Virus record (IMG/VR): IMGVR_UViG_3300007609_000003
Location: 124,001 to 188,000 of that record
Direction: 5' to 3' (one strand)
Origin: a virus
Length of the DNA: 64,000 nt
In this document: piece after piece, positions 4,224 through 53,311 of the stretch
Numbering within the stretch: position 1 is the stretch's first letter
Layout: each line of letters begins with the position of its first letter
Program-made: the position numbers and the translations under genes
Notes under the pieces: model-generated
What the model saw: only the letters and a program-made list of their open reading frames with translations
Database searches by the model: none
What the model was told of the DNA's origin: nothing

Positions 4224-4726
4224 TTTAAAGCGTCCTCGTATTTTGAAACGTAAGGTTCTGGAACTAGATCTGCGAATGGTATTGCTTTACATGCTGATCT
4301 AAAATCAGTTACATTCTCAAAATCAATTGTGTCTGGGATATCTCTTAATTTTTGTTTATCTGACTCGATCCGAGCAATCACGTCTTGATCATTTTTAGCT
4401 ATGGCTCTCATTTGATAAGTGTCAAGTAAAGATAGACATTCTAACCTTGCTGTTTTTATTTCAGACATAACAAAACTGTTTATTAAATCAATGTCAAGCA
4501 TAACTTCTGTTGGATTTTTATAATCATCAAATACACAGCGATCTGGAAAGGAAACTAGAGCTACCTTTTCAATCGACGAGCTTTTGTCAATAAATGGCAT
4601 TGATAAGGCCGCTGATTTTTTTGGTATTATGCCGTTATCTTTTAATGCTTCAACGCTAAGATCAGACACAATAAATTGCAGCTTTTCAGTTCCAACAGGA
4701 TTGTTAAAAAATATTGTTTTCTTCAT
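4220..4726 (-). CDS. Tail-fibre assembly chaperone-like protein
   Basis: 168 residues from the ATG at 4726, chosen because AAGGAAAT lies just upstream. A longer frame would begin without a good ribosome-binding site. The C-terminal segment 'KQKLRDIPDTIDFENV' resembles the 'LRDIPxxIDxxN' stretch in phage tail-fibre assembly chaperones and collar-attached fibre proteins. It directly follows the repeat-rich fibre gene, the usual place for a fibre chaperone. The family assignment rests on this short motif plus position. Confidence 0.5.
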   Translation of the reverse strand: MKKTIFFNNPVGTEKLQFIVSDLSVEALKDNGIIPKKSAALSMPFIDKSSSIEKVALVSFPDRCVFDDYKNPTEVMLDIDLINSFVMSEIKTARLECLSLLDTYQMRAIAKNDQDVIARIESDKQKLRDIPDTIDFENVTDFRSACKAIPFADLVPEPYVSKYEDALK

Positions 4727-4736
4727 TGTGATTTCC

Positions 4737-31743: not shown

Positions 31744-31915
31744 ATGCCTTATCCTTTAAATCTGCGAGTTCGTCAAAAGTTTTTGAACAGTCACCGCACA
31801 TGGTTTCAGTATGTACACCATCGGCCGATGAGTACTGTAGAGTGAAAGAGTTATCGGCCGATAGTCTGACCTTACAGAAAAAACATTCCTTTTTCTTTTT
31901 TCTTAGAAAGTTCAT
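31718..31915 (-). CDS. Small zinc-ribbon-like protein between gp44 and gp62
   Basis: 65 residues with two cysteine pairs, 'CFFCKVRL' near residue 11 and 'CGDCSKTF' near 40, the spacing of a small zinc ribbon. It overlaps gp44 by the ATGA junction and gp62 by 26 bases, so it is translated with the clamp loader. T4 has no gene here. It may bind DNA or a replisome protein (inference). Confidence 0.65.
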   Translation of the reverse strand: MNFLRKKKKECFFCKVRLSADNSFTLQYSSADGVHTETMCGDCSKTFDELADLKDKAYGQGFDTI

Positions 31916-32865
31916 TTGTAACTGGTCTCAAACATAACTTCTGTAAGGAACGCGATCATATTGATCTCGGCGTCTGCAACGAAGTGAGCCTTATACATAT
32001 AGTCAGCAAGAGTTACGATAAATCCTGGAAGACTCTTAAGTTCAACTTTATTGGTTGCCATATCATATATGTGACGGAACATTTCATTCGTATCCTGGTC
32101 ACTGTTATCAGCACACCACTTACGCATTCCTGTAAAGTTCTTTTCCTTCAACATAACAAAGAGTTGGTCGATCGACTCTTCCTTTAGATTTGTAAAGATA
32201 CCTTCATCAATTCGACCGGATGCGGCATACGTCTGTAACTCAGTAAGTACTCGGCGGAAATCTGGAAAGTGTTTTTCGATTACTTTTGCGACCACGGCTT
32301 TATCGTGATCAACATTTTCTTGCTCAAGAATTGATAAAACACGCTTAAAGAACTGCGCAGCCATCTTTGGACGATCCGTCTTCTCAATAGAAAAGTCAAC
32401 TTCAGATAAACGAGAACGAAGTGGTTCAATAATACGGTTCTTAAAGTTACATGTAAAGATAAAGCCACAGTTCTTAGAGTATTCTTCGATAAAGTTACGA
32501 AGAGCTGGCTGGACCGTTGCAGCATTTAGGTAATCAGCTTCGTCAAGAATAACATATTTACGACCGCCTGTAAAGGATACCGAGGATGCAAAGGTAGAGA
32601 TCTCGTAGCGAAGAGTATCAATGTTTACGTTGAGAGAGCCGTTCTTTACAATGTAATCGCAACCCAGCTCGTTTAACATTGCCTTTGCGATAGTTGTCTT
32701 ACCCATGCCAGGACCGCCGGTAAGCAGTAGATTTGGCATAGAGTTATCAGATACGAATTTTTTGAATACGTCTTTTGTCTTTTGTGGCAGGATAGTTTCT
32801 TCAATCGTACCTGGGCGATATGCTTCAACCCAGAGTACTTCATCAGCTTTTTTGTTCAGTGTCAT
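31912..32865 (-). CDS. 44: Clamp loader ATPase subunit gp44
   Basis: 317 residues (T4: 319). AAA+ ATPase: Walker A 'GGPGMGKTT' at 50-58, Walker B 'VILDEADYL' at ~105-113, sensor-1 'FIFTCNFKNRI', arginine-finger region 'EPLRSRLSEVDF'. T4 has SRC at the finger; here it is SRL. It uses ATP to open the gp45 ring at primer-template junctions. Confidence 0.95.
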   Translation of the reverse strand: MTLNKKADEVLWVEAYRPGTIEETILPQKTKDVFKKFVSDNSMPNLLLTGGPGMGKTTIAKAMLNELGCDYIVKNGSLNVNIDTLRYEISTFASSVSFTGGRKYVILDEADYLNAATVQPALRNFIEEYSKNCGFIFTCNFKNRIIEPLRSRLSEVDFSIEKTDRPKMAAQFFKRVLSILEQENVDHDKAVVAKVIEKHFPDFRRVLTELQTYAASGRIDEGIFTNLKEESIDQLFVMLKEKNFTGMRKWCADNSDQDTNEMFRHIYDMATNKVELKSLPGFIVTLADYMYKAHFVADAEINMIAFLTEVMFETSYK

Positions 32866-32960: not shown

Positions 32961-33140
32961 TTATTTCGCTTCGACTTCTTCATCAGGAGTTTCTTGCTTT
33001 ACGTATGAATCAAGTTTATCACGAATCGTTCCAACCGTAGTCATTTCATCACCTTGGATCGCTCCACGTTTTACACAGACGTCAATGATAGCAACCGCGT
33101 TGCGAATATCCTGCGCAGTAATTTCAATCTTATCTGCCAT
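32961..33140 (-). CDS. Small protein between sliding clamp and clamp loader
   Basis: 59 residues (start MADKIEITAQDIRNAVAIID, end acidic DEEVEAK). The ATG overlaps the gp45 stop by one base (TAATG), so it is coupled to the clamp. Related small proteins occur between gp45 and gp44 in marine T4-like phages. Function unknown. A role with the clamp loader is suggested only by position. Confidence 0.7.
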   Translation of the reverse strand: MADKIEITAQDIRNAVAIIDVCVKRGAIQGDEMTTVGTIRDKLDSYVKQETPDEEVEAK

Positions 33141-33808
33141 TATTCACCTTTTTCGTATTTTGACTTTGTATCAATTCCAACGTAGTAAGATACATCAGCA
33201 CCTTTAAAATAGGAGATACCTTTTGCGCAAAGAGTTACCTCATAGTCTTGTGGGAGCAACTTGAGGTTATCAGTCTTAATGATGATTGTAAACGTATCGT
33301 TCGTAGTACCGATCTCTACACCATACGCGTCGGCAGTTGGGTTCTTACTGTCGATTGCACGTAGGAAACATTTACCATCTTCACCGACGAATGCGATCTC
33401 TTCAAACTGCAGGACACCAGCGGCCTTAAGGACAGACTGAAGGTCGTCCCATACTACGTTTACTTGTACGTCTTCTGAAGGAATAGAAAGCTCTTTCTCG
33501 GGTGGTGCGATAACCATAGAAGGATCTGCATGAACATATTTTGTTTTCTTTTTGTTACCTTCAGAAATAGTAAAGTAACGATCGTTGAACTGTACATCAG
33601 GATCTTGGTGAAGGCTGAGGATCGAAAGAAAACGAGACAGATCATAGATAACAGCTTGTTCAGGGATATCATCTTCGATGTTTGCGATTGCAATCAGTGT
33701 TTTTTCTGGTGTAACTGTCTTAAGAACGTTGCCGGGTTTCATAATAATAGATTTATTAATCGTCGCAAAGCTTTTTAGGATAGTAAGGGTACGGTCAGAA
33801 ATTTTCAT
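33140..33808 (-). CDS. 45: Sliding clamp gp45
   Basis: 222 residues (T4: 228). Opens 'MKISDRTLTILKSFATINKS' like T4 gp45. The trimeric ring holds gp43 on DNA and, in T4, also acts as the mobile activator of late transcription with gp55 and gp33. It starts the gp45-gp44-gp62-regA operon and has a consensus early promoter (33843-33871). Several other proteins in this window end in peptides that could bind it. Confidence 0.93.
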   Translation of the reverse strand: MKISDRTLTILKSFATINKSIIMKPGNVLKTVTPEKTLIAIANIEDDIPEQAVIYDLSRFLSILSLHQDPDVQFNDRYFTISEGNKKKTKYVHADPSMVIAPPEKELSIPSEDVQVNVVWDDLQSVLKAAGVLQFEEIAFVGEDGKCFLRAIDSKNPTADAYGVEIGTTNDTFTIIIKTDNLKLLPQDYEVTLCAKGISYFKGADVSYYVGIDTKSKYEKGE

Positions 33809-33878: not shown

Positions 33879-34757
33879 TTAAGGTCGAAAGGCCTTTTTA
33901 GTTTTCTTTTTGTAGTTCTTTGGATTAGATTCCTTTGTAGCTGTTGCGCTAACTCCTAGAGTACTTACAGCACCAAGGGATCCACGGAATACATAGTTTC
34001 CTACGTGCTGCAGTTCCATCCAAGGACACATATGAACCTTAATACCAATTTTAGTCGCGTTTCGGCAGAAGAAGTAATCTTCTGATAGATAACGATTTGA
34101 GTCCGGATCAATTTCGCAATCAAAGAACGCCGTGATCTGATGTGAACCATCGAAGTTCTTTGTTCTTGCGTGGTCAGGAGTATATTTGAGTTCAGGATAT
34201 GCTTCTGCGTATTTCTCTAGCGCTTCACGGGGTATCAGCATAAATCCTGTACCAGCTTCACTTACCTCAACCGGTTCATCAATTCGGAAAGATGTTACAC
34301 CCTTGGCCATATTGAACACGTAGTCACCAGCATAGTAATCTAAATGAAACGGACTTTCATCAGCTTTGCCAAGTTCCACGGCCTTCTTTACCTTTTCCCA
34401 GGCAATAGTCTTTTTAGGATACGGTCCGGTCATAATATCGTATGTTTCCGGATTTAGAGTTTGAATTCCTAGTAATGAGAGTACATCATTTGCTTTAAAC
34501 CCGATATCTGAGTCAATGAACATAAGGTGAGTACAGTCAGAACGAAGGAACTCATCTACCACATAGTTCCTTGCGCGCTGAACTAAGCTCTCGTTGAATA
34601 GGTAATAGAACCTTACGTCGATCCCATACTTTGCACACATGGACGCAAGATCGTTCGTTGATTTGCAGAAAGTACCTGCACACTGTCCTCCATACATTGG
34701 AGCACCAATGAATATAGAATACTTTTGAAGATGCTCGGTTGTAATTTGGATATCCAT
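33879..34757 (-). CDS. GT-A-type glycosyltransferase-like protein
   Basis: 292 residues. 'YSIFIGAPMYGGQCAG' begins the domain. 'ESLVQRARNYVVDEF' is followed by 'CTHLMFIDSDIGF', which carries the Asp-x-Asp metal/nucleotide-binding motif of GT-A folds. Later 'EVSEAGTGFMLIPREAL' and 'YLSEDYFFCRNATKIG' resemble the acceptor-side E-D of such enzymes. The C-terminus is Lys-rich. Similar genes exist in marine T4-like phages. The target could be DNA, a virion protein or a cell-surface glycan; its place at the end of the DNA-modification block suggests DNA (inference). Confidence 0.65.
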   Translation of the reverse strand: MDIQITTEHLQKYSIFIGAPMYGGQCAGTFCKSTNDLASMCAKYGIDVRFYYLFNESLVQRARNYVVDEFLRSDCTHLMFIDSDIGFKANDVLSLLGIQTLNPETYDIMTGPYPKKTIAWEKVKKAVELGKADESPFHLDYYAGDYVFNMAKGVTSFRIDEPVEVSEAGTGFMLIPREALEKYAEAYPELKYTPDHARTKNFDGSHQITAFFDCEIDPDSNRYLSEDYFFCRNATKIGIKVHMCPWMELQHVGNYVFRGSLGAVSTLGVSATATKESNPKNYKKKTKKAFRP

Positions 34758-34769
34758 AATATAATTCCT

Positions 34770-35396
34770 TTATAGTAATTCTAAGTCGTTTTCTGCACGG
34801 TGGATCTGTTGCATTCTAAGTACGTCAGCTAGGATATCCCACGCGCTGTCGTGCTTTTTAAACTTTGCATTCCAAGTATTTTCGTCCGTCATAGGAGTAA
34901 AACCGTTCTGCTTTGGGAAGTTGAGTTTGGCGTCGATATAAGTACGAGTATCACGTACTCTCCAATACTTTAGGTATTCTTCCATATGTAAAAGTTTATC
35001 TTCCGCTTCAAAGATCCTCGAAAGAATGATTGGATCAAACGTGTTCGATCGGCTCCACCAGAAATCAATCTTTGGAGACTCAATTAAAAACTCGTGAAAG
35101 CTCTTAATGAATTCCTTTACGGTTAGATCCGATTTCTTTGGAGAAACATTGGCACGAACCTCAGGATCCTGTTCTTCCCAGAACTGTAATGTACTCTTAT
35201 CAATTTCCCAACCGTAGTTCTTAACTTGGTCGGCAACCGAGAGTTTGAACTTTCTTGTCTCTTTTATACTATCAAGCGTATATGGATTGGAAGAAAAGCG
35301 GTCGGTATTGAATACCATAACAGAACAATCTACGATGGCGCACTTTGATGCATCTTTTCCCATAGTCTCAAAGTCAATAATAAAGTGGTTACTCAT
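34770..35396 (-). CDS. dexA: Exonuclease A (DexA)
   Basis: 208 residues (T4 DexA: 227). DnaQ-like 3'-5' exonuclease: 'FIIDFETMGKDASKCAIVD' carries DxE, 'WWSRSNTFDPIILSRIFE' carries the second Asp, and 'KKHDSAWDILADVLRMQ' carries the HxAxxD motif. T4 DexA is a non-essential single-strand exonuclease. Its ATG overlaps the TGA of the methyltransferase gene (ATGA). Confidence 0.88.
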   Translation of the reverse strand: MSNHFIIDFETMGKDASKCAIVDCSVMVFNTDRFSSNPYTLDSIKETRKFKLSVADQVKNYGWEIDKSTLQFWEEQDPEVRANVSPKKSDLTVKEFIKSFHEFLIESPKIDFWWSRSNTFDPIILSRIFEAEDKLLHMEEYLKYWRVRDTRTYIDAKLNFPKQNGFTPMTDENTWNAKFKKHDSAWDILADVLRMQQIHRAENDLELL

Positions 35397-36607
35397 GCGA
35401 AGAATTCCTCTAGTGTGGCCATATCAGTCTTTCCGAGCGGATCGTTTTCCATTCTCTCGTAATGATTGTTCTGGCGTAGATAGTTTGTATCAGATAGTTC
35501 CAATTCACCACGAACGAACTTTCCAATCTCAGTGTGTATATCACGAGACGTAGGTACCGGTACGTTCTGCGCAATATGGTTCATTTTTGCGAGACCACCG
35601 ACGAGTTCAAAGTCGTCAGGGAATCCCATCATATGTAATGCCTCACGAATAGTTAATGAACGATCGTGGATAGGATGAATAGTATCGGCAAGATTTCTAC
35701 CAATTACAGCATTCATACATTCATCAAACACGTGAGTAGAACTGTCCCATACACCTTTACCCATTGCGTACTTTTTAATCGCGTGATCCGATACCTTAAC
35801 TCCACGTTCGTGACCAACTTCTTTAAACCACTTGTTTGCTTCTTCGAGCAATCCTTGGCGTTGGATATATGTAAAGGCTGTAATATTTTGATTACGAATT
35901 AGAATATCCCTTGGGTTCTCGTTTGTTCTCGATTTGAGGAACTGAAAGTATGGTTCATCATCGAGCTTTTGGTTAATAATTAGATCCTGCTGTAGTTGCT
36001 TTTCATCAACTTCAGTTACATAGTCCCTAAAGTTCTTACGATCTCGTTTGTACCAGGACATGATTGGAGCCTTTTCTGATTTCCAACCGATCGCAAAGGT
36101 ACGATCGCGAGCTTGAGGAATACCGTGATACTTGGTAGAAGTTTTGTATAGAGTTAAACTATAACCTCTTTTGTTGCAAATGTCAAACAAATTGTTTGCA
36201 ACTTCACGACCTTTATTTGTATAGAGGGCAGGAGCGTTCTCGACTACGACTGCCTTTGCACCGAATAGATCAAAACCGTCCTCAAATACTTTGTACATCC
36301 ATTCGTTCTTTGCGCATCCTGCGCCTTTTGCTTCTTCGGTCTTACCGGTGTTCAATTGCGACAACGCAGCACAGGGTGGAGTACCCGACACAACATCAAC
36401 CTTATGAATTGGTGGACCTTCGTCTAGGAGCCGATATTCCAATCCACGACCCTTTACGTTATTCTGGTAGTTAACATAGTGGCTATCATTTGCTTGGAAC
36501 CCGTCGTAGGAATAGATTGCCTCTGGTGGTTTACCAAAAGCTTTTTCTGCTCCTAACATTTGACCGCCGATGAGTGGTATATGTGATGCCCATGTAATAT
36601 TGCTCAT
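35393..36607 (-). CDS. C5-cytosine DNA methyltransferase with polymerase-like C-terminal tail
   Basis: 404 residues. C5-methyltransferase motifs: I-like 'HIPLIGGQMLGAE', IV 'SGTPPCAALSQLN' (catalytic Cys ~79), VI 'VVVENAPAL' (Glu ~123), VIII 'IPQARDRTFAIGW', and IX/X 'LTIREALHMMGFPDDF' with 'PVPTSRDIH'. It should transfer or handle a group at cytosine C5. The last residues, ATLEEFFA, match the tails of the neighbouring glycosyltransferase and of gp43, suggesting sliding-clamp binding. In a phage that also has dCMP hydroxymethylase, its substrate may be residual cytosine or hydroxymethylcytosine (inference). Confidence 0.85.
   Translation of the reverse strand: MSNITWASHIPLIGGQMLGAEKAFGKPPEAIYSYDGFQANDSHYVNYQNNVKGRGLEYRLLDEGPPIHKVDVVSGTPPCAALSQLNTGKTEEAKGAGCAKNEWMYKVFEDGFDLFGAKAVVVENAPALYTNKGREVANNLFDICNKRGYSLTLYKTSTKYHGIPQARDRTFAIGWKSEKAPIMSWYKRDRKNFRDYVTEVDEKQLQQDLIINQKLDDEPYFQFLKSRTNENPRDILIRNQNITAFTYIQRQGLLEEANKWFKEVGHERGVKVSDHAIKKYAMGKGVWDSSTHVFDECMNAVIGRNLADTIHPIHDRSLTIREALHMMGFPDDFELVGGLAKMNHIAQNVPVPTSRDIHTEIGKFVRGELELSDTNYLRQNNHYERMENDPLGKTDMATLEEFFA
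36158..36186 (-). promoter_or_regulatory. Possible internal sigma70 promoter in the methyltransferase gene
   Basis: TTGACA (36186-36181), 17-base spacer, TATAGT (36163-36158) on the coding strand. The match is as good as the intergenic promoters, but it lies in codons for FDICNKRGYS, so it could be chance. If active it would add transcripts for DexA and the GT-A-like gene. Confidence 0.3.
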
Positions 36608-36619
36608 TATTCTTATTCC

Positions 36620-37864
36620 CTATGCAAAAAAGTCTTCAAGTGTTGATACGGTTTTCTTTTCATACTTGCTCGTATCCGGCTGAATATAATTCGGATCCAC
36701 TGAGGACATGATCTTGTTGTTTATAAATGTTCCATCGTAGTATTCTGGTTTAAGAACTGCTTTACGCAGATTGGCGAGTACTTCTTCATACCGCGCTTTA
36801 TCATCAATAAGACTCTGCATGCGTTCATAGAACTCAGATGGAGTTTGTGGACGAAGAAACATCGGAATAGGTAGATGACCTTGCGTATCATATGAAGGAT
36901 GAAGGAAAGGAATTACGCCGGCGTGGATCATTTCGATATACTTTGATGTGGTCCAACCTTCTTTAATCGGAATAATGAAGGTAAACTTTACATCTTGTAA
37001 TTTGTTCTGCAGTTCACTAAGATGAAGGGATCCTTTGAAACGACTGTCCTCTCCAGTCACGTCTGACCATTTACCATATACTTCTACGTCGTCAAACTTA
37101 TTCAATACCCATTCCTTGAGTAGATTATAACGAGACGGTTTACCTTCGTTGAGAACAACCATGAAGTCGGTGTTACGATCCATGTTTACCTGTTCACCGT
37201 ATTCATAGTCCCCGCAGAACGCAGTCTCCATACCAGCATACTCTGATTTAACTACACGAGTAATACGTTCCTGGTCCTCATAGTTACGAATAGCAAAGGT
37301 TTCATATTCATAATCAAACTGGCCGAGAGATTTCATTGGCATATGGAACACGTCACGCGGTTGCTTTATGGTATAACGCGGATCGTTTACGATCTCAACG
37401 TAAGGTGGCTTTTCTTCATTCAGCCAAGTAGTAATCGGGGTTGTGTACCACTTAGACATGTCGAGAGTGGCGGCAGGTTTTCCGTCGTTACCCTCTCTTA
37501 CCTTTTGAATACGATTTGGAATAGTCACGTTACTCATTTGACCAATCATCATAATCGTAAAATCGAGTGTAAGGTTCTTTTCTTTAAAGTAGGTAATGAT
37601 ATGGTTGAAGTACTTCTCAGAGATCTCTAACCCAACGCCTTCCCATACATCGACCACGTTATCATATGGAAACAACTCGTTCTTTTCAATATCAGATAGA
37701 GTGGCGTAGTCAGAGCGACCTACGATATAAAAATTTTTGTCCGGATTGTTGTTCGCTACAGCGCGTAGAGTGCAGGATGCTTCGTTGTCTCCGCCAATCG
37801 GAGAGTACTTGTTTGTTCTAAATTTAATAGATTTGCCTACTTTTGCAAAGCCGATGTTTTTCAT
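36620..37864 (-). CDS. GT-B-type glycosyltransferase, candidate DNA base glycosyltransferase, clamp-tail
   Basis: 414 residues. The second half shows the GT-B donor domain: 'VEVYGKWSD', 'KGSLHLSELQNKLQDVKFTF', 'IIPIKEGWTTSKYIEMIHAG', 'VIPFLHPSYDTQGHLP', then a run of helices as in T4 beta-glucosyltransferase (same order of elements, little identity). The C-terminal STLEDFFA matches the gp43 and methyltransferase ends. T4 alpha-glucosyltransferase has been reported to contact gp45, so clamp tethering of a DNA glycosyltransferase has precedent. It lies in one operon with gp42, a nucleotidyltransferase-kinase and a HAD phosphatase. Sugar and exact acceptor are unknown. Confidence 0.65.
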   Translation of the reverse strand: MKNIGFAKVGKSIKFRTNKYSPIGGDNEASCTLRAVANNNPDKNFYIVGRSDYATLSDIEKNELFPYDNVVDVWEGVGLEISEKYFNHIITYFKEKNLTLDFTIMMIGQMSNVTIPNRIQKVREGNDGKPAATLDMSKWYTTPITTWLNEEKPPYVEIVNDPRYTIKQPRDVFHMPMKSLGQFDYEYETFAIRNYEDQERITRVVKSEYAGMETAFCGDYEYGEQVNMDRNTDFMVVLNEGKPSRYNLLKEWVLNKFDDVEVYGKWSDVTGEDSRFKGSLHLSELQNKLQDVKFTFIIPIKEGWTTSKYIEMIHAGVIPFLHPSYDTQGHLPIPMFLRPQTPSEFYERMQSLIDDKARYEEVLANLRKAVLKPEYYDGTFINNKIMSSVDPNYIQPDTSKYEKKTVSTLEDFFA

Positions 37865-37865
37865 T

Positions 37866-38228
37866 TTAACCCCATTCTATAAATTTGACAAAATCCTGCG
37901 GAAGCATTGCTTTGTCATCAACATAATAAACGCCGTATGGTTTACCCCATACGATCTCGTCGTATGGTACCTCGTACTTTTCTAACCAATCGGTAGTAAT
38001 CTTTCCGACATCATCGATAATTTTATTTATATCGCCGTCGTGAGTCACCATTCTACGAGCCGTATGAATTACGATCCGATAGCCCTTTTCTCTTGCGATC
38101 TTTAGGCTATTAATCATTTCAGTCTTAGGACTGGCCATACTATACTTTTCATAACTATCCTTTCTTCCATGGAGTGGAATGCAGATAGTATCATCAAGAT
38201 CCATTACTATTGTTTGTTGCGTATTCAT
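37866..38228 (-). CDS. HAD-family phosphatase (capsule-biosynthesis type)
   Basis: 120 residues. HAD motif I 'VMDLDDTICIP' (residues 8-18), motif II 'IHTARRM', and the C-terminal 'WGKPYGVYYVDDKAML' with motif IV DD. Short HAD proteins of this class occur in sugar-nucleotide and capsule clusters, where they remove phosphate from sugar phosphates. It overlaps the nucleotidyltransferase-kinase gene by 35 bases and precedes the glycosyltransferase by one base, so it probably serves the same pathway. Confidence 0.75.
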   Translation of the reverse strand: MNTQQTIVMDLDDTICIPLHGRKDSYEKYSMASPKTEMINSLKIAREKGYRIVIHTARRMVTHDGDINKIIDDVGKITTDWLEKYEVPYDEIVWGKPYGVYYVDDKAMLPQDFVKFIEWG

Positions 38229-39684
38229 TCACATAACCTATCATTCTCTGTTGTCTTTGTTCACAATCGTAGTGCAGCTTAATGCAGGTAGCAATAAGTA
38301 GAGCACCACCGTCAATGATCTCATCGTATTCTTCTGGATAGTATTTCATTACCATCTTTGAGAAACTTTCTTTGACGTAACTCGGATATTTATGCCCGGT
38401 GACTAGTTCGTTATATCCATGGTAAAGATCGTGAGACAACTTGCACATATCGTATAGGTAGTCGCCACCACATCCTACATGATTTCCATACGAACCGCGT
38501 GGATCTAACAGTGTGATGCTATCGTTATATGGATTATATAGAATGTTACCAAAGTGCAGATCACCGTGCATTGCTGCAACGGGTCGAGCCTTCTTCAAAC
38601 ATCTTTGGGCTACTTCTGTATAATATGGAGAGAAACCGTATGAAGGCAACCTTTCGGCGGTCTTTTCAATCCACATTGCTTCGGCGTTTACATAAAAGTC
38701 TGCAGTGAATTGAAGATCCGCTCTGGTATGAAAGTGTTTCTGCATTACGTTTATTACTTTTTCGATTAAGTAGTCAATCGTACTGTTCGAAATATCCTCG
38801 TGCATAAACAGGTCTGACAGTAGCACGCCGGACTCGTATGACATTGACAGTGCATAGTTGTTCTCAAGGATCTTTGGTACCATCATCTTTTGATGAGAGT
38901 TGAGTGAGTCATACCACAACTTCTCGTTCATAACAGTCTTAACCGCAAACTTGTTCTTAGGATCTGGGTTCTTAGTAACTACATTGAGATCCGGATCATA
39001 TTCAAAGGAGTTGAACTCACGGGCTTTAAAGGTAAGGAACTCGGCACATGTTCTATGATAGGATGAGATGTCGCCAATGTCATACCACCCGTTCGTATAG
39101 ATACGCTTGTACTGAGAGCCGTATGCGTCGAGCGCAGCAGAGATATCGTAGTCATCAGTATTTCGAAAGGCCGAAGTTGCGATCGTACCGTCACTGAAAC
39201 TATACAGTCCTACGAGAGCAACCGCGTCTGCGATCGTTTCCTTTGGTTTGTTGTAGTATTGCTTACCATCCCACATACACCAAGCAAAGTGATCCTCTAC
39301 ATCTTTTACTAATAGAAAGTCTTTACCCAATGGAAGGTTTTCATCAAGGATGATTGCGTCTCCGAGCCATACAACGAGTGGAAGATCTGAATCATCAAGT
39401 TCATCGATGCCAACTCGAATAGCATCGCGGGGACCGTTCAACGATCCCTGTTTTACACAATGAATATTATCGTACTTACTCTTTTCTGCCCATTCTCGGA
39501 TGTCGTTATGTTTTCCATCAACGATAACGATCTCGGCTACATCAGGAGTATTCTTATAGATGGACTCAATGATATACTCGATCGTAGGCTTGCCATGAAC
39601 ACGGACCATCGCCTTTGAGCAGTTTGATGTTAAGGGTCGTAGGCGAGTTGCTTCACCCGCCGCCGGTATTACTACATTGATCAT
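38194..39684 (-). CDS. Sugar nucleotidyltransferase-kinase fusion
   Basis: 496 residues from the ATG at 39684 (GGAGAGGA six bases upstream; earlier Mets lack a site). Residues 1-235 are a sugar-1-phosphate nucleotidyltransferase: 'VIPAAGEATRLRPLTSNCSK', 'VVWLGDAI', 'NGWYDIGD'. Residues ~280-480 are an aminoglycoside/choline kinase-like fold: 'AAMHGDLHFGNILYN' (catalytic HGDxxxxN) and 'ITLLDPRGSYGNHVG' (metal Asp). One protein could thus phosphorylate a sugar or alcohol and activate it to an NDP-linked donor. This supports donor synthesis for the neighbouring glycosyltransferase. The substrate is not deducible. Confidence 0.8.
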   Translation of the reverse strand: MINVVIPAAGEATRLRPLTSNCSKAMVRVHGKPTIEYIIESIYKNTPDVAEIVIVDGKHNDIREWAEKSKYDNIHCVKQGSLNGPRDAIRVGIDELDDSDLPLVVWLGDAIILDENLPLGKDFLLVKDVEDHFAWCMWDGKQYYNKPKETIADAVALVGLYSFSDGTIATSAFRNTDDYDISAALDAYGSQYKRIYTNGWYDIGDISSYHRTCAEFLTFKAREFNSFEYDPDLNVVTKNPDPKNKFAVKTVMNEKLWYDSLNSHQKMMVPKILENNYALSMSYESGVLLSDLFMHEDISNSTIDYLIEKVINVMQKHFHTRADLQFTADFYVNAEAMWIEKTAERLPSYGFSPYYTEVAQRCLKKARPVAAMHGDLHFGNILYNPYNDSITLLDPRGSYGNHVGCGGDYLYDMCKLSHDLYHGYNELVTGHKYPSYVKESFSKMVMKYYPEEYDEIIDGGALLIATCIKLHYDCEQRQQRMIGYVNEYATNNSNGS

Positions 39685-40321
39685 ATTGTCCTCTCCATGC
39701 ATCGTATTCATCTTCAAGATTAACCCACTGCATTTTTGTATATCGTGTTTGCGCAGAAAAACGTTTATCCCAAATTATCCACATATATGCAATCATCCCT
39801 CCTATTTGATCCTTCTTTTCGACAGGTTCAACTAGACCAGAATCAAATTTAGCGCGATCTGATAGAAATATTATATCACTTGGTGGGTTATTTGTAAATA
39901 GTTTTTTTCTCTTTTTTCCTTCAAGAAACGTTAAGCGAAGAAACATTGCGGTGTAACTGTATTCATCAATCCACTTTTCGGCCAACTTACGAGGCAGGTC
40001 CTTATGATACGGTGGATTGGTTACTACACCTTCGGCAAAGTCTTGCTTTGGAGTCTCAAGAGCGTCGTGTGATGTATTTATGCTACATAGAGAGTCTTTG
40101 TATTCGTGTAGGTCATGGCTTAAAACATTATGACCATTTCGAGCAAGTTCAACAGAAATGTTACCCTTTCCTGCGCAGGGTTCAAAAATGTTCTGCGGTG
40201 GTCTATTATATTTGCATAGTATGTAGGTAGCAAGAGGAGGGGTCGGATAGAAGTCGTTCTTCTTACGATTTGGATCGTTCTTTTTTACGCCAACGTATAT
40301 ATCTGTTAAGTTCTTAGCCAA
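39653..40321 (-). CDS. N6-adenine/N4-cytosine-type DNA methyltransferase-like protein
   Basis: 222 residues, start TTG at 40321 (no nearby ATG; AGGTGA upstream). SAM-binding 'IFEPCAGKGNISVELARNGH' and catalytic 'TNPPYHK' (NPPY) are typical of amino-methyltransferases; N-terminal 'KKNDFYPTPPLATYILCKY' is the usual lead-in. No target-recognition domain is evident, so it may have short or little specificity. It overlaps the dCMP deaminase by eight bases and the nucleotidyltransferase gene by 32 bases. Confidence 0.75.
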   Translation of the reverse strand: MAKNLTDIYVGVKKNDPNRKKNDFYPTPPLATYILCKYNRPPQNIFEPCAGKGNISVELARNGHNVLSHDLHEYKDSLCSINTSHDALETPKQDFAEGVVTNPPYHKDLPRKLAEKWIDEYSYTAMFLRLTFLEGKKRKKLFTNNPPSDIIFLSDRAKFDSGLVEPVEKKDQIGGMIAYMWIIWDKRFSAQTRYTKMQWVNLEDEYDAWRGQYDQCSNTGGG

Positions 40322-41274: not shown

Positions 41275-41964
41275 TTATTGTACCAAGTGAAAATGACGGC
41301 TATACACGTGCAAGTTCATTACCTGCCATGTAAGATCACCTTTTTCAATTTCGCCATGTTTACCATCAATACCAGCAAGTTCATTCCATAGCTTTACAAA
41401 CTCATCCATTAGGTACTGGGCCCAAGCATAATCATTTTTGTAACCAAAGACTACGTCGTTTGAACGCATTTGAGATACCATGTGGAGTTTATCATCACGA
41501 ATATAGAATGTCTGAGCGTTGGTACAGATAAAATCTGATTTACCATTTTCATTGAACTCAACCCAGATAGATGGTCGGTTATATACCATTTGTGAGCGAC
41601 GGCTGTCTCGGTTATACCAAAGCTCATTAAAAGCTTTATCAAATTGATTAAAGTACTTATCAGCAAACACCAAATGACCATAGTTGGAATTGATTTCTCC
41701 ATTGTCGTCTGCTGAATATACCCACGCAGCTGGAGGTTTTTTATCTTTACCATGAATGTCGTTAATGTTAGTAGAGCCTGACTTATACCAAGCCAGTTCA
41801 GCATCAATGTATTCCTGCTTTGGAGTACCAAAGATAGCAGGCTCGTCGGCAATAAAGCTTGCACCTAACATTTCAATCGTTTGCTGGCCTGTCTTGTCGG
41901 TTGTGAAACGTTCTGCCTTGAGTTCTTCAATAAAATAGTTACGAATATCATTTACGTTTTGCAT
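41275..41964 (-). CDS. 42: dCMP hydroxymethylase gp42
   Basis: 229 residues (T4 gp42: 246). Clear thymidylate-synthase-family match to T4 gp42: 'DKTGQQTIEMLGASFIADEP', 'GEINSNYG', 'SRRSQMVYNRPS', 'SDFICTNAQT' (catalytic Cys 147; T4 148), 'RSNDVVFGYKNDYAWAQYLM' (Asp 178; T4 Asp179 selects dCMP over dUMP, where thymidylate synthase has Asn) and 'LHVYSRHFHLV'. It makes 5-hydroxymethyl-dCMP, implying hydroxymethylcytosine in the phage DNA. A perfect sigma70 promoter lies just upstream at 42009-42037. Confidence 0.92.
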   Translation of the reverse strand: MQNVNDIRNYFIEELKAERFTTDKTGQQTIEMLGASFIADEPAIFGTPKQEYIDAELAWYKSGSTNINDIHGKDKKPPAAWVYSADDNGEINSNYGHLVFADKYFNQFDKAFNELWYNRDSRRSQMVYNRPSIWVEFNENGKSDFICTNAQTFYIRDDKLHMVSQMRSNDVVFGYKNDYAWAQYLMDEFVKLWNELAGIDGKHGEIEKGDLTWQVMNLHVYSRHFHLVQ

Positions 41965-46395: not shown

Positions 46396-47496
46396 CTACA
46401 TGAAAAAACTTTCAAGGGTATCCTTTTTCTCGGCATGCCATCCAATTGCTTCAAGAATGCTTTCAACTGGGCCGAGGAATACTTTGCTAAATTGTGTTTC
46501 ATAATCTACATATTCGTCTAATCCTAACTGTTTTGGCAATACGTTTGGAAACGAAATGATATTTTCACGCAGTGGATTTGGAAGTTTTAGATATACGAAT
46601 TTGATCTTATCGCCGCTTCTTACAGCCTCGTACGTTTTGTTCAATTTCTTTTCCTTAAGAAACTTGTTGTATAGGATTGCGCCGCGAACGTGCATAGGAC
46701 AACCCTTCTTGTAGGTTCCCATAGACATGTACTTTTCGATGTTGTCTGTACCAGAGTTACGGCCGACAGACTCAGGAGGAAGGTTATAGAACTCCGTCCT
46801 AAAGTCTGCGATAAAGTTCTGAACGTCGGTCTCAGTACCCTGCATAATAACTTCAAAGGCTTCTTTCATCTTTTCACGACATACCTCAGGAGTTGAGGAT
46901 CGAACAGACTCCAAACCGGTTACCGAGATCTTTGGCTTTTCGTAGTGAACACCTTCAGAGTTGAGAGTATTCATAATGTAACGTTTCTTTGCGATAAACA
47001 CCGACTTATCAGTAATCTTTTCGCGTTTCATAAACATTGCCTGGCGATATGCGCCCATCTTTTTGGCAAGCTCTTCGTAACCTGCTTCAATGATTGGCTC
47101 GATCTTCATTTGGCAAACTTTATCAAGGAACTCTTCACCCTTCTTACGATCAACGTCAATAGTACCAAAGGCAGACTCGACGATGGGAGACATGTCAACA
47201 TAGATGGAGTCAGTGTCGATATAAACGATGTAGTCGTTATCCGTCTTAAGGATCTTATTCATATAATCGTTTACGGACTTCTGAGCATATCGAATAGACA
47301 ACTGACCGGATGTAGTGATAGCTTCAGCCATGTCATTAATATAGTATAGGAAGTAAATGTTTGCCATCGCGCCATAAAGCGAGTTTAGCGAAATTTTAAT
47401 CGCCATCTGACCGTTGTGTAATTGGTTTGCTTGCCGTTGCTTTTCAGCCAGAAGATCTTCGAGTTCTTCATTGCTTAGATTTTTGAGATTCATCAT
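46396..47496 (-). CDS. 43B: DNA polymerase gp43, C-terminal half (palm motifs B and C, thumb)
   Basis: 366 residues. Contains polymerase motif B 'KISLNSLYGAMAN' (~34-46), motif C 'YIDTDSIYVD' (~92-101) and the thumb, ending 'KKDTLESFFM', the position of the clamp-binding tail in T4 and RB69 gp43. Lacks exonuclease and motif A, which are in the other gene at 48440-49930. Together the halves have 862 residues, near the 898 of T4 gp43. AAAGGAAAAG lies before the tandem ATGs. The two parts must associate to form an active enzyme; split gp43 is known in some Aeromonas T4-like phages. Confidence 0.93.
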   Translation of the reverse strand: MMNLKNLSNEELEDLLAEKQRQANQLHNGQMAIKISLNSLYGAMANIYFLYYINDMAEAITTSGQLSIRYAQKSVNDYMNKILKTDNDYIVYIDTDSIYVDMSPIVESAFGTIDVDRKKGEEFLDKVCQMKIEPIIEAGYEELAKKMGAYRQAMFMKREKITDKSVFIAKKRYIMNTLNSEGVHYEKPKISVTGLESVRSSTPEVCREKMKEAFEVIMQGTETDVQNFIADFRTEFYNLPPESVGRNSGTDNIEKYMSMGTYKKGCPMHVRGAILYNKFLKEKKLNKTYEAVRSGDKIKFVYLKLPNPLRENIISFPNVLPKQLGLDEYVDYETQFSKVFLGPVESILEAIGWHAEKKDTLESFFM

Positions 47497-47632
47497 TCTT
47501 TTCCTTTACAAATATTTCATACGCCAACTCGTCAATTGATTTATTTGAAATATATCCTCTTTCAACAAGAAATGAAGCTTTATCAATGTATTGCTTTTCG
47601 TTCCTCAAGTATTTTAAATCTTTTTCATACAT
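47468..47632 (-). CDS. Small ORF between the endonuclease and gp43B
   Basis: 54 residues from the ATG at 47632 (MYEKDLKYLRNEKQYIDKAS…, 'SNKSIDELAYEIFVKEKNDE'), charged and helical. It overlaps the endonuclease stop by eight bases and gp43B by 29 bases. It is the first gene after the internal promoter at 47677-47705, and its translation across the gp43B start could couple the two. Weak ribosome-binding site; may be a remnant of insertion. Confidence 0.45.
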   Translation of the reverse strand: MYEKDLKYLRNEKQYIDKASFLVERGYISNKSIDELAYEIFVKEKNDESQKSKQ

Positions 47633-48362
47633 ATTTAAAAAGTTCTTCAAAGCATTTGGTTTTTGTATTGTTAATCACTATATCACTAAAACGCAAAACT
47701 GTCAACCCGTTTTCAGCGGCCTGCCCTTCAAATTCTCTATCCTTTTTCTTTTGTTCTGTTGAACTATGCCAGTACTCGCCATCAATCTCAACTAATATGT
47801 TTGTTCCTAATATTTTAAAATCGTAGCGATGCATTCCTTTATCTATTTGATACTGCCTTTCATATTGTATGTTATGCTCTTTGCACCACGATGCGAATTG
47901 GCGCTCTGGTTTTGTAAATCTATACGCACCGTCACCCTGGGCATGCACGCCAATAATTCCATCATAACATAATTGTCGCTGGCGCTCTCTCTTCTCTTCT
48001 GTCCAATATAAGCTTTGATTATTTTTAGGGACGTCGTTTTCACGTAGAATTCTAAGTATGGTATTTTGAACAACCCCGAATTCGCCTGCTATTTTTTTAG
48101 CTGACATTTTTTTATTTTTATACATGTCTATAATAGCCACTTCATCCAACTTAATCTTATGTATCTCAGAATATCTTTTTCTTTTGGCTTCTGAGCTCCA
48201 GTTTCTTTTAAGTATACCTGGGTTTTCTTTCTTTATTTTATTGTAGAACGCGAAGTAATTCAAATCGTTTACTTCGCAAACGTGCCTAAGACTTTCACCA
48301 TCTTGTATTTCTTTAACAACCATATCATAGTTGCTAGTTAACTGCTCTGAATATTTTGACAC
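47625..48362 (-). CDS. EDxHD (Vsr-like) homing endonuclease in split gp43
   Basis: 245 residues from the GTG at 48362, which has GTTGGAG six bases upstream; a TTG twelve bases earlier lies within that site. N-terminal 'CEVNDLNYFAFYNKI' and 'SAKKIAGEFGVVQNTILRIL' are helix-turn-helix DNA-binding parts. C-terminal 'FTKPERQFASWCKEHNI', 'HRYDFKILGTNILVEIDGEY' and 'WHSS' carry the E-D-x-H-D nuclease core related to very-short-patch repair enzymes. This family is often found free-standing in fractured phage genes. Such enzymes cut the uninterrupted allele to spread themselves. Driven by its own late promoter. Confidence 0.85.
   Translation of the reverse strand: MSKYSEQLTSNYDMVVKEIQDGESLRHVCEVNDLNYFAFYNKIKKENPGILKRNWSSEAKRKRYSEIHKIKLDEVAIIDMYKNKKMSAKKIAGEFGVVQNTILRILRENDVPKNNQSLYWTEEKRERQRQLCYDGIIGVHAQGDGAYRFTKPERQFASWCKEHNIQYERQYQIDKGMHRYDFKILGTNILVEIDGEYWHSSTEQKKKDREFEGQAAENGLTVLRFSDIVINNTKTKCFEELFKYV
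47677..47705 (-). promoter_or_regulatory. Sigma70 promoter inside the endonuclease gene, driving gp43B
   Basis: TTGACA (47705-47700), 17-base spacer, TATAGT (47682-47677) within the last codons of the homing endonuclease, 180 bases upstream of gp43B. It is as strong as the gp43A promoter and would let the second polymerase half be made independently. Confidence 0.7.
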
Positions 48363-48396
48363 GTTTTTCTCCAACTAGGTTTGTTCATTACAATTT

Positions 48397-48404
48397 TATT
48401 TATA
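48397..48404 (-). promoter_or_regulatory. T4-type late promoter (TATAAATA) for the homing endonuclease
   Basis: Exact TATAAATA on the minus strand, 35 bases before the GTG start, in the 77-base gap after gp43A. Late control of homing endonucleases inside early genes is known in T4 (e.g. I-TevI). Confidence 0.8.
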
Positions 48405-48439
48405 ATGAAAAGCAAGAGAGTTCATAACAATTTTTATTT

Positions 48440-49930
48440 TTATGCAACTTTTCTACGATTTATCTCTTCTTTAATTTTTTCGATCTCCTGCTCAACCTCC
48501 AACATTTCTTTCTTGATAATTTTACGATTACCGTAGTACTCGTCAATGATCTCGGGAATGATACCGATATGTTTGTTTGTAAAACACGCGCCGTTTGCCG
48601 CGACCGAAACATCAGACTTTTGGTTTTGGTAATTACCATCCAATACCATATCTTGAGAGACATAGTCACGTTCATCCTTCATATACGTCTCAGGAGACAT
48701 GTTGTACTGAAGCATTAGGTGTGGATATAGTGAGTTTAGATCGAAGGAGACGATCCAAGGATGCATACCGACCTTTGGGTCCTTTACATAACCACCGACG
48801 AGATCGCCAGCACGTTGTCCTGGTCCACCCTTAACGTGAGGTACTCTCTTTTCCTGAATCAGTTTGCGATAGAGAGTCGTTTCCCAGATACCAACGGTAC
48901 CGAATGCATCTCCGAAGTTTACTCCGCCACCGTAAGCAACGGTCATAACTAACTGAAGTAGAGACGTTTCATCTTCCATTCTCTGAATAAGATGAGTGTC
49001 CTTAAGGTTATAGTCGAGATACAACTGAGGGTTCTTTTCATATAGAGTCGTAAGATCACCGTACTCTGAATAATCGAGTTTCTTTTCTCCAAGGATTACA
49101 TATGCGATATGGTCGAGTTTATATGACTCTTGAGGACCGTACTTATAACCAAACTTTTTAAACGCGTCCATATAGTCGATTACTGTCATACCGGTAATTT
49201 GATAAGTGGAAGCAGGTTTTCCAAAGATCTCACGCGTTTTCATGCGTATGTTTCTCCAAGGAGACAGCTGCTTTGCCTTTTCTTCACCAAACAGTCGAAT
49301 GATACGTGTAACAACATACATAATATCAAAGTATTCAACGTTCCAACCTGTAATAACCTCAGGATAGTCGTTCATCCAAATCTGAATAAAACGCTGAAGC
49401 ATTGCTTGTTCAGTATCAAACTCCATAAATTGAATATCGTCTGGGTCGATGCCAGTGATAGTTTTTGTCTTATCATAGTCCTTACGAGCCAAGAGATGGT
49501 ACGTACTTGTCTTTGAAGACTTCATTGAGATAGAAGTAATCTCTTTATCAGCTTCATCGATATTTGCGTATCCGTCGCTGATATCGACCTCGATGTCAAA
49601 AGACATGATGTTAATCTTTTTCATATCAAACTTAATATCACCTGGATATTTTTGTTGAATGAACTGAGCTACATAGTTTGTATTTCCATACATTTCAAAA
49701 CCATGTACGTCCTTATGCTGTTCGATAAACTCCTTTGCCTCTGACATAGATAGACATTGCCGAGGAGACAGAGGGCGATCACCGATTAGCGAACGGTATT
49801 CACCGTCTTTGTCTGGCAAGAACAGAACTGGTTTAAACTTTTCCTTACGAATAAACGGTTTTCCGTTTTCATATCCACGCCATAGGATGTTGTTACCAAA
49901 ACGTTCAACATTTGTATAAAAATTAGACAT
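48440..49930 (-). CDS. 43A: DNA polymerase gp43, N-terminal half (exonuclease and palm motif A)
   Basis: 496 residues. Family B: Exo I 'MSFDIEVD' (~109-116), Exo II 'TGWNVEYFDIMYV', Exo III 'YNLKDTHLI', and palm motif A 'SFDLNSLYPHLMLQYNMSPE'. It ends in a helical stretch 'IKKEMLEVEQEIEKIKEEIN' that corresponds to the fingers; motif B starts in gp43B, so the split is in the fingers domain. The helical ends of both halves may pair as the interface. A consensus early promoter is upstream. Confidence 0.93.
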   Translation of the reverse strand: MSNFYTNVERFGNNILWRGYENGKPFIRKEKFKPVLFLPDKDGEYRSLIGDRPLSPRQCLSMSEAKEFIEQHKDVHGFEMYGNTNYVAQFIQQKYPGDIKFDMKKINIMSFDIEVDISDGYANIDEADKEITSISMKSSKTSTYHLLARKDYDKTKTITGIDPDDIQFMEFDTEQAMLQRFIQIWMNDYPEVITGWNVEYFDIMYVVTRIIRLFGEEKAKQLSPWRNIRMKTREIFGKPASTYQITGMTVIDYMDAFKKFGYKYGPQESYKLDHIAYVILGEKKLDYSEYGDLTTLYEKNPQLYLDYNLKDTHLIQRMEDETSLLQLVMTVAYGGGVNFGDAFGTVGIWETTLYRKLIQEKRVPHVKGGPGQRAGDLVGGYVKDPKVGMHPWIVSFDLNSLYPHLMLQYNMSPETYMKDERDYVSQDMVLDGNYQNQKSDVSVAANGACFTNKHIGIIPEIIDEYYGNRKIIKKEMLEVEQEIEKIKEEINRRKVA

Positions 49931-51705: not shown

Positions 51706-52766
51706 TATAAATTCATTGCCTCTACGTATAGTTCATCAATAACTTTTTTGATCTTTTTCTTTTCTATCGTCGTTTCGATAGAGTCGATATAGGTATGTAG
51801 AATATCTTTTGTTTCCTGCGTTTCATCAAGGATCTCGTCCATACCCGAGGACTCAAGGTTAAGAGTATCGTCAATAGATTTTACATCAGCAGCACCACTA
51901 TCAGCTATCTTATTTAAGAAAGTGTCATATAGGTAACCGTTCGTTCTATTCTTCACAATCACCTTAACATAAGTATTCTTTAGAACATCGGTATCTAACT
52001 TTGCGATATCCTCGATAGTCATATCAACATCGTCGTATTCTATCTTATGGAAGATACGATTTGGATTCTCAACGAATTGAATATCACGAGTCTCAGTATC
52101 GAATACGTGAAAACCTCTACGTCCGCCGTAGTCATTCCATGTCATTTCATATTGAGCACCGAGGTACTTGATGTTACCATACTCAGAAGGATGGTGAAAG
52201 TGACCCGAGTACACAGCTTCAAATCCAGAAAATGTGTCCTTCTTCATACCGTGATCGCATAGCGTACCCTTCATCATTTCAAAACCTTCGATCTCAAAGT
52301 GGCCGAGAAGGATATTTGCGTCTGATGCAGAAATCGCAGCGTGACACGTTTCACGGTTGTTCTTCGTAATCCACGGTACCATCATAAACCGAGTTGAGCC
52401 AAATGTCAACTCCTTTGGCTCGTGTTCATAGATATGAAAGTTATCGTACTCTTGAAGCAATAGAGACATCGAGTTTACTTCGTTAGTATTCGTAAAATAG
52501 ACACTATGATTTCCAACTACGGCATGGTACTCAATGTTTCGAGATGCCAACTGACTAAAAAAGAACTCCTTAGCTCTCTTTAGTGTAACGTAGTTAATAT
52601 ACTTACGTCTATCAAATGTATCACCAAGGTCCATCACAACCTTGACATTATTCTCATCTAGGTAAGGAAAGAATACTTCTGAAAAGAATCGTTCTTGATG
52701 ATCGAGAAATATCTTGCTATCACCCCTACATCCAAAGTGATTATCATTAATAAAAGCAATCTTCAT
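51705..52766 (-). CDS. 47: Recombination endonuclease subunit gp47 (Mre11/SbcD-like)
   Basis: 353 residues (T4: 339). Metallophosphoesterase motifs 'FINDNHFG' (4-11), 'VMDLGDTFDRRKYI' (~44-57), 'VVGNHSVYF' (~83-91), and 'YSGHFHHPS'. It is the nuclease partner of gp46. Overlaps gp55 by ATGA at its start. Confidence 0.95.
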   Translation of the reverse strand: MKIAFINDNHFGCRGDSKIFLDHQERFFSEVFFPYLDENNVKVVMDLGDTFDRRKYINYVTLKRAKEFFFSQLASRNIEYHAVVGNHSVYFTNTNEVNSMSLLLQEYDNFHIYEHEPKELTFGSTRFMMVPWITKNNRETCHAAISASDANILLGHFEIEGFEMMKGTLCDHGMKKDTFSGFEAVYSGHFHHPSEYGNIKYLGAQYEMTWNDYGGRRGFHVFDTETRDIQFVENPNRIFHKIEYDDVDMTIEDIAKLDTDVLKNTYVKVIVKNRTNGYLYDTFLNKIADSGAADVKSIDDTLNLESSGMDEILDETQETKDILHTYIDSIETTIEKKKIKKVIDELYVEAMNL

Positions 52767-53311
52767 TTATCAGTATCTTTCTCAGGATCTTCTTCTAGGT
52801 CCTCTTTAACTTTTTTTGGAACTTTATTCTTTGCTAATTTTTCCTCGTAGTCACTTACAAAGTGGTTGATGTAGTCGGCGTTCGTATTCAAATGTAACTG
52901 AACTTCGTTGGACTCGTAAGTTGCTCCCTGTGCAACCATATTATGAGAAGACTTAAAGCGGATATACATCTGCTTCTTTTCCTTTTGTATTCGGCGCAGG
53001 AAGGCGTACCAAATGATCTGTGTAAAGTATGCAAATGGATTTGAAGATTTGTTCGGATCGAAGTTACCAATATATAATAGACAGTTTTCGATACCGTCCA
53101 TGATCATATCTTCTTTGTATGTATATCCTGAAAAGTTTGGTTTGGTTGCGAGACGATTTGCGATCTTAAAGATACACTCACCGATATACTTAGGGACCGT
53201 CGGCAACTCGTCTCCTTGGTCCTCGGCCTCCTGACACTTTTTCTTGTACTCTATGAGAGCCTCAAGTAAGTCTTTATTATTTACGTAATTCTTTTTGACC
53301 CTTCGAGCCAT
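52763..53311 (-). CDS. 55: Late-transcription sigma factor gp55
   Basis: 182 residues (T4: 185). 'YIGECIFKIANRLATKPNFS', 'YKEDMIMDGIENCLLYIGNF' and 'SSNPFAYFTQIIWYAFLRRI' form the sigma region-2-like core that recognises TATAAATA. The C-terminus is purely charged (ends PEKDTDK) and lacks the hydrophobic sliding-clamp-binding tail of T4 gp55. It is encoded in the order 55-47-46 with a consensus early promoter. Confidence 0.92.
   Translation of the reverse strand: MARRVKKNYVNNKDLLEALIEYKKKCQEAEDQGDELPTVPKYIGECIFKIANRLATKPNFSGYTYKEDMIMDGIENCLLYIGNFDPNKSSNPFAYFTQIIWYAFLRRIQKEKKQMYIRFKSSHNMVAQGATYESNEVQLHLNTNADYINHFVSDYEEKLAKNKVPKKVKEDLEEDPEKDTDK

Follow-up and report, generated by a model that had tools for sequence, protein, structure and literature searches.

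Peptides that bind the sliding clamp are already known on the DNA polymerase, the late transcription factors, DNA ligase and RNase H of T4-like phages, and clamp contacts are known for T4 alpha-glucosyltransferase (alpha-GT) and, with PCNA, for DNMT1. According to the papers cited here and below, the C-terminal peptide of RB69 gp43, the polymerase, was co-crystallised with the clamp gp45 (1b8h; PMC3012046). T4 gp43 residues 892-SLDFLF-897 occupy the gp45 pocket, and a polymerase that lacks its six final residues no longer associates with the clamp (PMC12746103); the clamp motifs of gp43, gp55 and gp33 are interchangeable (PMC2988020). As to base-modifying enzymes, T4 alpha-GT pulls down gp45, and beta-GT does not bind it (PMC13216743). 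Here we describe a tail of this kind in a 64,000-nucleotide stretch of viral DNA (the window), positions 124001-188000 of the 201,055-base IMG/VR virus record IMGVR_UViG_3300007609_000003, where a C5-cytosine DNA methyltransferase (MT) and a glycosyltransferase (GT) end like gp43B, the C-terminal part of the phage's own polymerase. An earlier account made from the letters alone, the sequence-only reading, had seen this common ending and taken it for a clamp-binding tail, pointing to the gp45 contacts of gp43 and alpha-GT that these papers bear out; it went on to propose that both enzymes act on DNA as it emerges from the replisome. We consider it very likely, from the sequences, that MT and GT carry a clamp-interacting peptide that would dock in gp45 and hold both enzymes on new phage DNA.

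Matching C-terminal tails in the window

The replisome of the window is T4-type (gp45, gp44, gp62, RegA, gp46, gp47, and gp43 split as gp43A and gp43B), and a DNA-modification cluster containing MT and GT adjoins gp45. The features that the argument needs are these:

35393..36607, minus strand: C5-cytosine DNA methyltransferase (MT), 404 aa, with C-terminal tail (Pfam PF00145, E 1.6e-20)
35396..35419, minus strand: MT tail codons, ATLEEFFA (motif kept in 80/80 distinct relatives)
36620..37864, minus strand: GT-B glycosyltransferase (GT) with T4 beta-glucosyltransferase fold, 414 aa, with C-terminal tail (AlphaFold2 and Foldseek)
36623..36646, minus strand: GT tail codons, STLEDFFA (kept in 69/69 at 45% identity or more, 0/13 at 28-31%)
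46396..47496, minus strand: gp43B, the C-terminal piece of the interrupted DNA polymerase, 366 aa (family-B DNA polymerase by Pfam; phrog_262, E 7e-132)
46399..46422, minus strand: polymerase tail codons, DTLESFFM, clamp-interacting peptide (alignment to RB69 gp43)
48440..49930, minus strand: gp43A, N-terminal part of the DNA polymerase (phrog_262, E 8.4e-154)
33140..33808, minus strand: gp45 sliding clamp, proposed partner of the tails (phrog_223, E 4.9e-69; best PDB matches T4/RB69 gp45)
31912..32865, minus strand: gp44, clamp loader large subunit (phrog_168, E 7.5e-107)

When the 251 open reading frames (ORFs) of at least 50 aa in the window were searched for [ST]L[ED]x[FL][FLWY] at the C-terminus, only MT, GT and gp43B matched, confirming the common ending. 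A phmmer alignment of gp43B with RB69 gp43 reaches the clamp-binding tail and pairs DTLESF with ASLFDM; by this alignment, the gp43B tail corresponds in position to that of RB69 gp43. The MT and GT tails have the same motif as gp43 of their own genome and of its relatives, and they match the hydrophobic/acidic gp43 consensus L-x-x-F/L-F/L/Y.

The catalytic residues of MT (Cys79, E123-N124 and Q165xR167xR169) were invariant in 17/17 aligned sequences, and we take them to be motif IV (Cys), motif VI (ENx) and motif VIII (QxRxR). By these catalytic motifs MT is a C5-cytosine DNA methyltransferase, its activity being predicted. GT matched no Pfam family at E 0.001 and no PHROG, and its sequence fell short of PF09198. 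Its AlphaFold2 model (mean pLDDT 82.5), however, retrieved T4 beta-glucosyltransferase (BGT) at all of ranks 1-6 in a Foldseek search of PDB (best E 2.5e-8; TM-score by target length 0.58-0.66), so the earlier label of a GT-B protein holds. Judged by the fold of the model, GT is BGT-like, and we do not file it as a PF09198 member. The last four residues of the model average a pLDDT of 57, against 76 for the preceding block.

Could the endings have been copied from the 3' end of the polymerase gene, by gene conversion or by insertion at the polymerase stop with target duplication, and be functionless? Such an event is suggested in locus L284, where a GIY-YIG endonuclease gene (4640-5482, minus strand) lies just after the polymerase stop and its last 22 nt repeat the polymerase end, as if the target had been duplicated. 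In the window, however, 16 of 21 tail nucleotides are identical between MT and GT, 13 between GT and polymerase, and 11 between MT and polymerase. The tail codons are thus unlike among the three genes, which argues against a recent DNA duplication; they differ in L312 as well, and across 80 MT and 69 GT sequences the amino acids are kept while the codons vary. We therefore regard copying as a very improbable origin of the tails.

The polymerase gene itself (46396-49930) is split by an inserted gene (47625-48374) with DUF559/endonuclease-like and helix-turn-helix matches; in the near relative G001 it is unsplit, with an 845-aa frame.

Conservation and recurrence of the tail

Relatives were drawn from IMG/VR as the best 80 of 130 loci for MT and the best 80 of 98 for GT, with the MT alignment built from the best 80 of 491, and distant relatives are under-sampled in consequence. 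The count dropped ORFs that had no stop, were shorter than 150 aa, aligned over fewer than 100 residues or had an alignment missing the last 60 query residues, and it omitted the named-phage loci, where XG4 and S-TIM61 are without the tail. The MT tail was present in 80/80 distinct relatives (68 at 60% identity or more, 3 at 45-60%, 9 at 25-45%), and the GT tail in 69/69 at 45% identity or more, a set that came in part from loci picked by tail. Together with the alignment of the gp43B tail to that of RB69, these counts strongly support, as far as sequence can, the clamp-tail reading. A different, Melnitz-type C5-methyltransferase lacked the tail in 20/20 cases.

The tail Leu and the first Phe had amino-acid entropies of 0-0.2 bits, with up to six Leu codons in use, and the linker positions mostly 1-3 bits, indicating a divergent linker between domain and peptide; polymerase entropies, mostly from loci picked by tail, are no evidence here. 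Tailless homologues (XG4, GTs of 28-31% identity, Enterococcus phage 9183) end near the start of the linker. The MT and GT peptide thus lies at the extreme C-terminus, beyond the folded domain. The conserved end of MT and GT behind a variable linker presents the same picture as described for gp55, whose hydrophobic and acidic end is conserved and follows a linker of 17 residues that diverges (PMC2988020).

A loose tail search of four records (G000, G002, G003 and G004, with 858, 906, 911 and 465 ORFs of at least 50 aa), which considered an ORF only if another record had a homologue, gave many chance-like ends; the TLExFF type was found in MT, GT and polymerase only. There was no polymerase match in G004, a record that may be partial. 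One loose-motif protein, of 155 aa (G000:34125-34592), was rejected, because its sequence reads as a coiled coil followed by a membrane helix at the C-terminus.

Exact pattern scans of IMG/VR gave at least 122 sites for TLEDFF[AG]-TAA, 35 for TLEEFF[AG]-TAA and at least 121 for TLEDFF[AG]-TGA. Among the matches listed, 240 of 278 sites were gp43. The other 38 comprised 6 fragments or ORFs shorter than 100 aa and 32 proteins that reach 100 aa, some of them truncated where the contig stops: 10 of the window-GT family, 7 of phrog_13881, 3 N4/N6 methyltransferases, 3 Dam D12 methyltransferases, 2 TET/JBP dioxygenases, 2 TAGT, and one each of C5-methyltransferase, GT4-like, GIY-YIG, HNH and a protein without assignment. 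Known DNA-modification families thus made up 22/32 of the non-gp43 tailed proteins listed. The GIY-YIG protein is the one from L284, which we discounted as probably copied from the polymerase 3' end and which is still included in the 32.

The TAA pattern, run against 257 Gb of prokaryote genomes, had 12 matches: three Archaeoglobaceae proteins of 495-499 aa with one cut copy, and eight others whose longest ORF was 126 aa. The Archaeoglobaceae proteins (L425, L426, L428, L420), which from their N-terminus we take to be large subunits of the clamp loader RFC, end VTTLEDFFG or VATLEDFFG, in letters nearly identical to the phage tail. A 55-aa protein ending TNTLEEFFG (L417:1274-1441, L419:12292-12459) may be a small T4-like phage protein that binds the clamp.

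We then asked how common such ends are in the background, using 274 loci from the tail scans with the exact-tail ORFs removed. A relaxed tail was found in 36/59 ORFs matching modification references (36/39 once the Melnitz-type C5-methyltransferase was excluded) vs 28/1304 others; at the level of clusters the figures were 23/32 vs 21/934, related sequences not being independent. Since the reference set was built partly from tailed proteins, this enrichment reflects not independent gain alone but also descent within families. Ten of the tailed "others" were scanned: four had a 5-hmdU-kinase helical domain, one was a TAGT, one a phrog_799 methyltransferase and one Asn-synthase-like, and three had no match. 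Homologues of T4 alpha-GT (27-33% identity), a reference chosen regardless of tail, had tails such as GLEAFFA in 4/4 cases in the fetched IMG/VR loci.

These figures leave little room for a chance likeness among short hydrophobic C-termini. The 155-aa protein shows that the loose pattern can be matched by an unrelated end, but the same residues in scrambled order gave 0 IMG/VR matches, vs at least 120 for the tail, 9/9 MTs at 25-45% identity are tailed, and the relaxed tail is far more frequent among modification-family ORFs than among others. We consider a chance origin extremely improbable.

The tail also occurs in nearly all of 58 distinct ORFs of phrog_13881, one tailless member being a piece of a broken copy. 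In L525, L540 and L451 this gene adjoins a 5-hmdU-kinase-like gene that is tailed too, and the two are joined in phrog_17781, a family of 795 positions that matches phrog_13881 and also a region similar to the kinase-like protein. Adjacency and fusion tie phrog_13881 to DNA modification. Its model (mean pLDDT 75.9) had weak GDSL-hydrolase-like matches (2hsj, E 8e-4, TMq 0.36), and the seven census proteins were therefore not counted as known modification enzymes. The two genes, seen also in Aeromonas phage 44RR (ORF233c), are a probable DNA hypermodification pair.

Among named phages, gp45 was searched for and not found in S-TIM61, 9183, S-CBWM1, HTVC112P and P12024L, and their MT, GT and TET homologues had the tail in 0/6 proteins, the P12024L methyltransferase included. 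Where gp45 was present, tails were seen in DLP6 (TET ATLGDFFV, TAGT DLSSFFN), C48C1 (TET SLEEFFV, Dam TLDAFFG), Melnitz (TET NLNDFLGE; its MT is tailless) and Cr30, whose TAGT ends DLSKLF, matching the deviating tail of its own polymerase, DLSSLFD. The Cr30 TET ends TGATLF, perhaps a remnant, and the Cr30 ADDT is without a clear tail. Enzymes that are tailless despite gp45 include T4 Dam, alpha-GT and beta-GT, and the Dam of Bellamy and S-H38. In these phages, then, the tail is seen only alongside gp45, but gp45 does not require the tail.

In Caulobacter phage Cr30 (L635), a cultured phage that grows on a laboratory strain, one cluster brings together the TAGT, the TET dioxygenase and a transferase of the amino acid:DNA type (PF18724), which suggests a TET-based hypermodification path.

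The sequences themselves show the tail, how well it is conserved, that it is the same as the polymerase tail, and that it recurs on unrelated modification enzymes in gp45-encoding phages. From this it seems likely that clamp tethering is a general device for DNA modification in gp45 phages, with a peptide that was gained many times and can co-vary with the polymerase tail. This view would take in at least eight unrelated tailed types, among C5-, Dam- and N4/N6-methyltransferases, TET, TAGT, and BGT-like, AGT-like, GT4-like and 5-hmdU-kinase-like proteins.

Predicted docking in gp45 and the surrounding genes

A low-identity alignment of the window clamp with the seven reported RB69 pocket residues places hydrophobic residues at the equivalents of 39, 107, 109 and 217. 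Because the mapped pocket is only partly conserved, the tail might bind another replisome protein (e.g., gp32 or gp43), or be a stability signal that only resembles a clamp tail. We find this unlikely, since the polymerase bears the same motif as its clamp-binding tail, the tail is missing from homologues in the five named phages without detectable gp45, and the Cr30 TAGT tail follows the deviating Cr30 polymerase tail.

Some findings do weigh against the proposed tethering of MT and GT to gp45. The same low-identity alignment turns Trp199 into Cys and leaves two basic pocket residues unmatched. The 13 GTs at 28-31% identity, a separate GT group, have the tail in 0/13 cases, although most adjoin a tailed MT. 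XG4 has gp45 and a clamp-tailed polymerase, yet its MT (48% identical) and GT (44%) are tailless. T4 alpha-GT lacks this C-terminal motif and still binds gp45, and the share of alpha-glucosylation in T4 is set mostly by promoter and ribosome-binding strength and by enzyme activity, with little effect of clamp contact (PMC13216743). The sequence-only reading had staked its case on homologues of the two enzymes not lacking the tail as a rule; as a rule they carry it, XG4, the 28-31% GT group and the different C5-methyltransferase type being the exceptions.

The T4 glucosylation result also favours a narrower role, as does the want of a T4-type clamp tail on gp55 of the window clade: the tail would bind gp45 but only raise the local concentration of the enzymes on any clamp-loaded DNA, or compete with other clients in polymerase exchange or late transcription. 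Most of the enzymes on which the tail recurs, however, act on new DNA, which favours a role in modifying it, and we consider the narrower role possible but doubtful.

The late sigma factor gp55 (52763-53311, minus strand, in the window; loci L205-L208) lacks the T4-type clamp tail in 4/4 records (G000-G003), with ends such as EEDPEKDTDK, although a review describes the gp55 clamp tail as conserved among T4-like phages. The XG4 protein ends YGLDLLIEEE, and that of Melnitz carries GLEKFYDEQ close to its C-terminus. Since gp55 of the window clade is tailless while the modifying enzymes are tailed, clamp clients may have been reassigned in this clade.

In the tethering that we favour, each enzyme would consist of a folded catalytic domain, a short variable linker and L-acid-x-F-F at the extreme C-terminus, and this peptide would occupy the same hydrophobic gp45 pocket as the polymerase tail. 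The clamp ring would stay on the new duplex behind the polymerase and hold MT and GT on fresh phage DNA, so that cytosine methylation or hydroxymethylcytosine glycosylation would occur soon after synthesis and mainly on phage DNA. We infer gp45 binding, and with it the timing and preference that binding would bring. Binding of the tails to gp45 is predicted with high confidence; coupling of modification to replication is plausible and, in our judgement, somewhat favoured.

Besides MT and GT, the cluster holds a HAD gene, a nucleotidyl transferase, a phrog_799 methyltransferase-like gene, a dCMP/cytidine-type deaminase and a dCMP hydroxymethylase. Three of these were placed as follows:

37866..38228, minus strand: HAD-type phosphatase-like gene, same cluster (PF25109, E 2e-4, below the family cut-off)
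38194..39717, minus strand: nucleotidyl transferase, possible sugar-nucleotide supply (PF00483, E 1.3e-15)
41275..41964, minus strand: dCMP hydroxymethylase, T4 gp42 homologue (best PDB match T4 gp42, 1b49)

The hydroxymethylase scored 217 bits against T4 gp42 in PDB vs 30 bits against thymidylate synthase, and the Asp of NDYAW is retained. Given this resemblance to gp42, the phage probably has hydroxymethylcytosine in its DNA, the base on which a BGT-fold transferase naturally acts and the likely substrate of GT. A search of four records found no homologue of the T4 gp56 dCTPase. An intact-looking C5-methyltransferase beside a dCMP hydroxymethylase is puzzling as to the methyltransferase substrate, if hydroxymethylcytosine replaces cytosine.

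Between gp45 and the methyltransferase cluster lies a 292-aa phrog_1574 protein without a tail (33879-34757, minus strand); its FIDSDIGF suggests a GT-A transferase. A PBP-superfamily gene (PF12849; 44587-45630, minus strand), which we take to be of the phosphate-binding type, is a host-like auxiliary gene.

Relation to known clamp clients

If MT and GT are held by the clamp as proposed, the tail offers a concrete mechanism by which post-replication modification could keep pace with the fork and choose phage over host DNA, and it links the "tool-belt" biology of the clamp with phage DNA hypermodification. It also yields a rule: a TLE[DE]FF-type C-terminus in a phage with gp45 marks the protein as a candidate for DNA modification, e.g., phrog_13881. 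Searches of open-access literature on phage DNA modification and clamp binding gave, on this point, the T4 alpha-GT paper alone, in agreement with the earlier statement that no clamp tail is known to be described on a phage C5-methyltransferase. The clamp-tail pattern across classes of DNA-modification enzymes appears to be undescribed.

The closest likeness is to the peptides of T4/RB69 gp43, gp55 and gp33, which, like the MT and GT tails, stand at the extreme C-terminus behind a divergent linker, are hydrophobic and acidic, and have L followed by F/L/Y at +3/+4; T4 gp43 ends KASLDFLFG and T4 gp55 ends SPSLDFLYEAND. Unlike these, the tail described here is on DNA-modification enzymes and has the consensus TLE[DE]FF. 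T4 RNase H and DNA ligase are likewise replication enzymes with short gp45-binding peptides (PMC3012046, PMC7892883), but the motif of RNase H is at the N-terminus, and the two enzymes trim or join DNA and modify no base. T4 alpha-GT is, like GT, a phage DNA glycosyltransferase, and it contacts the sliding clamp as GT is predicted to do; it belongs to another GT family and ends FDIITK.

A parallel for MT is the eukaryotic DNMT1, in which a PCNA-binding motif ties a C5-cytosine methyltransferase to a sliding clamp at newly made DNA (PMC9690074). The pattern that DNMT1 restores is an inherited one, whereas the phage enzyme would mark or shield its own genome, and the two peptides were probably gained independently.

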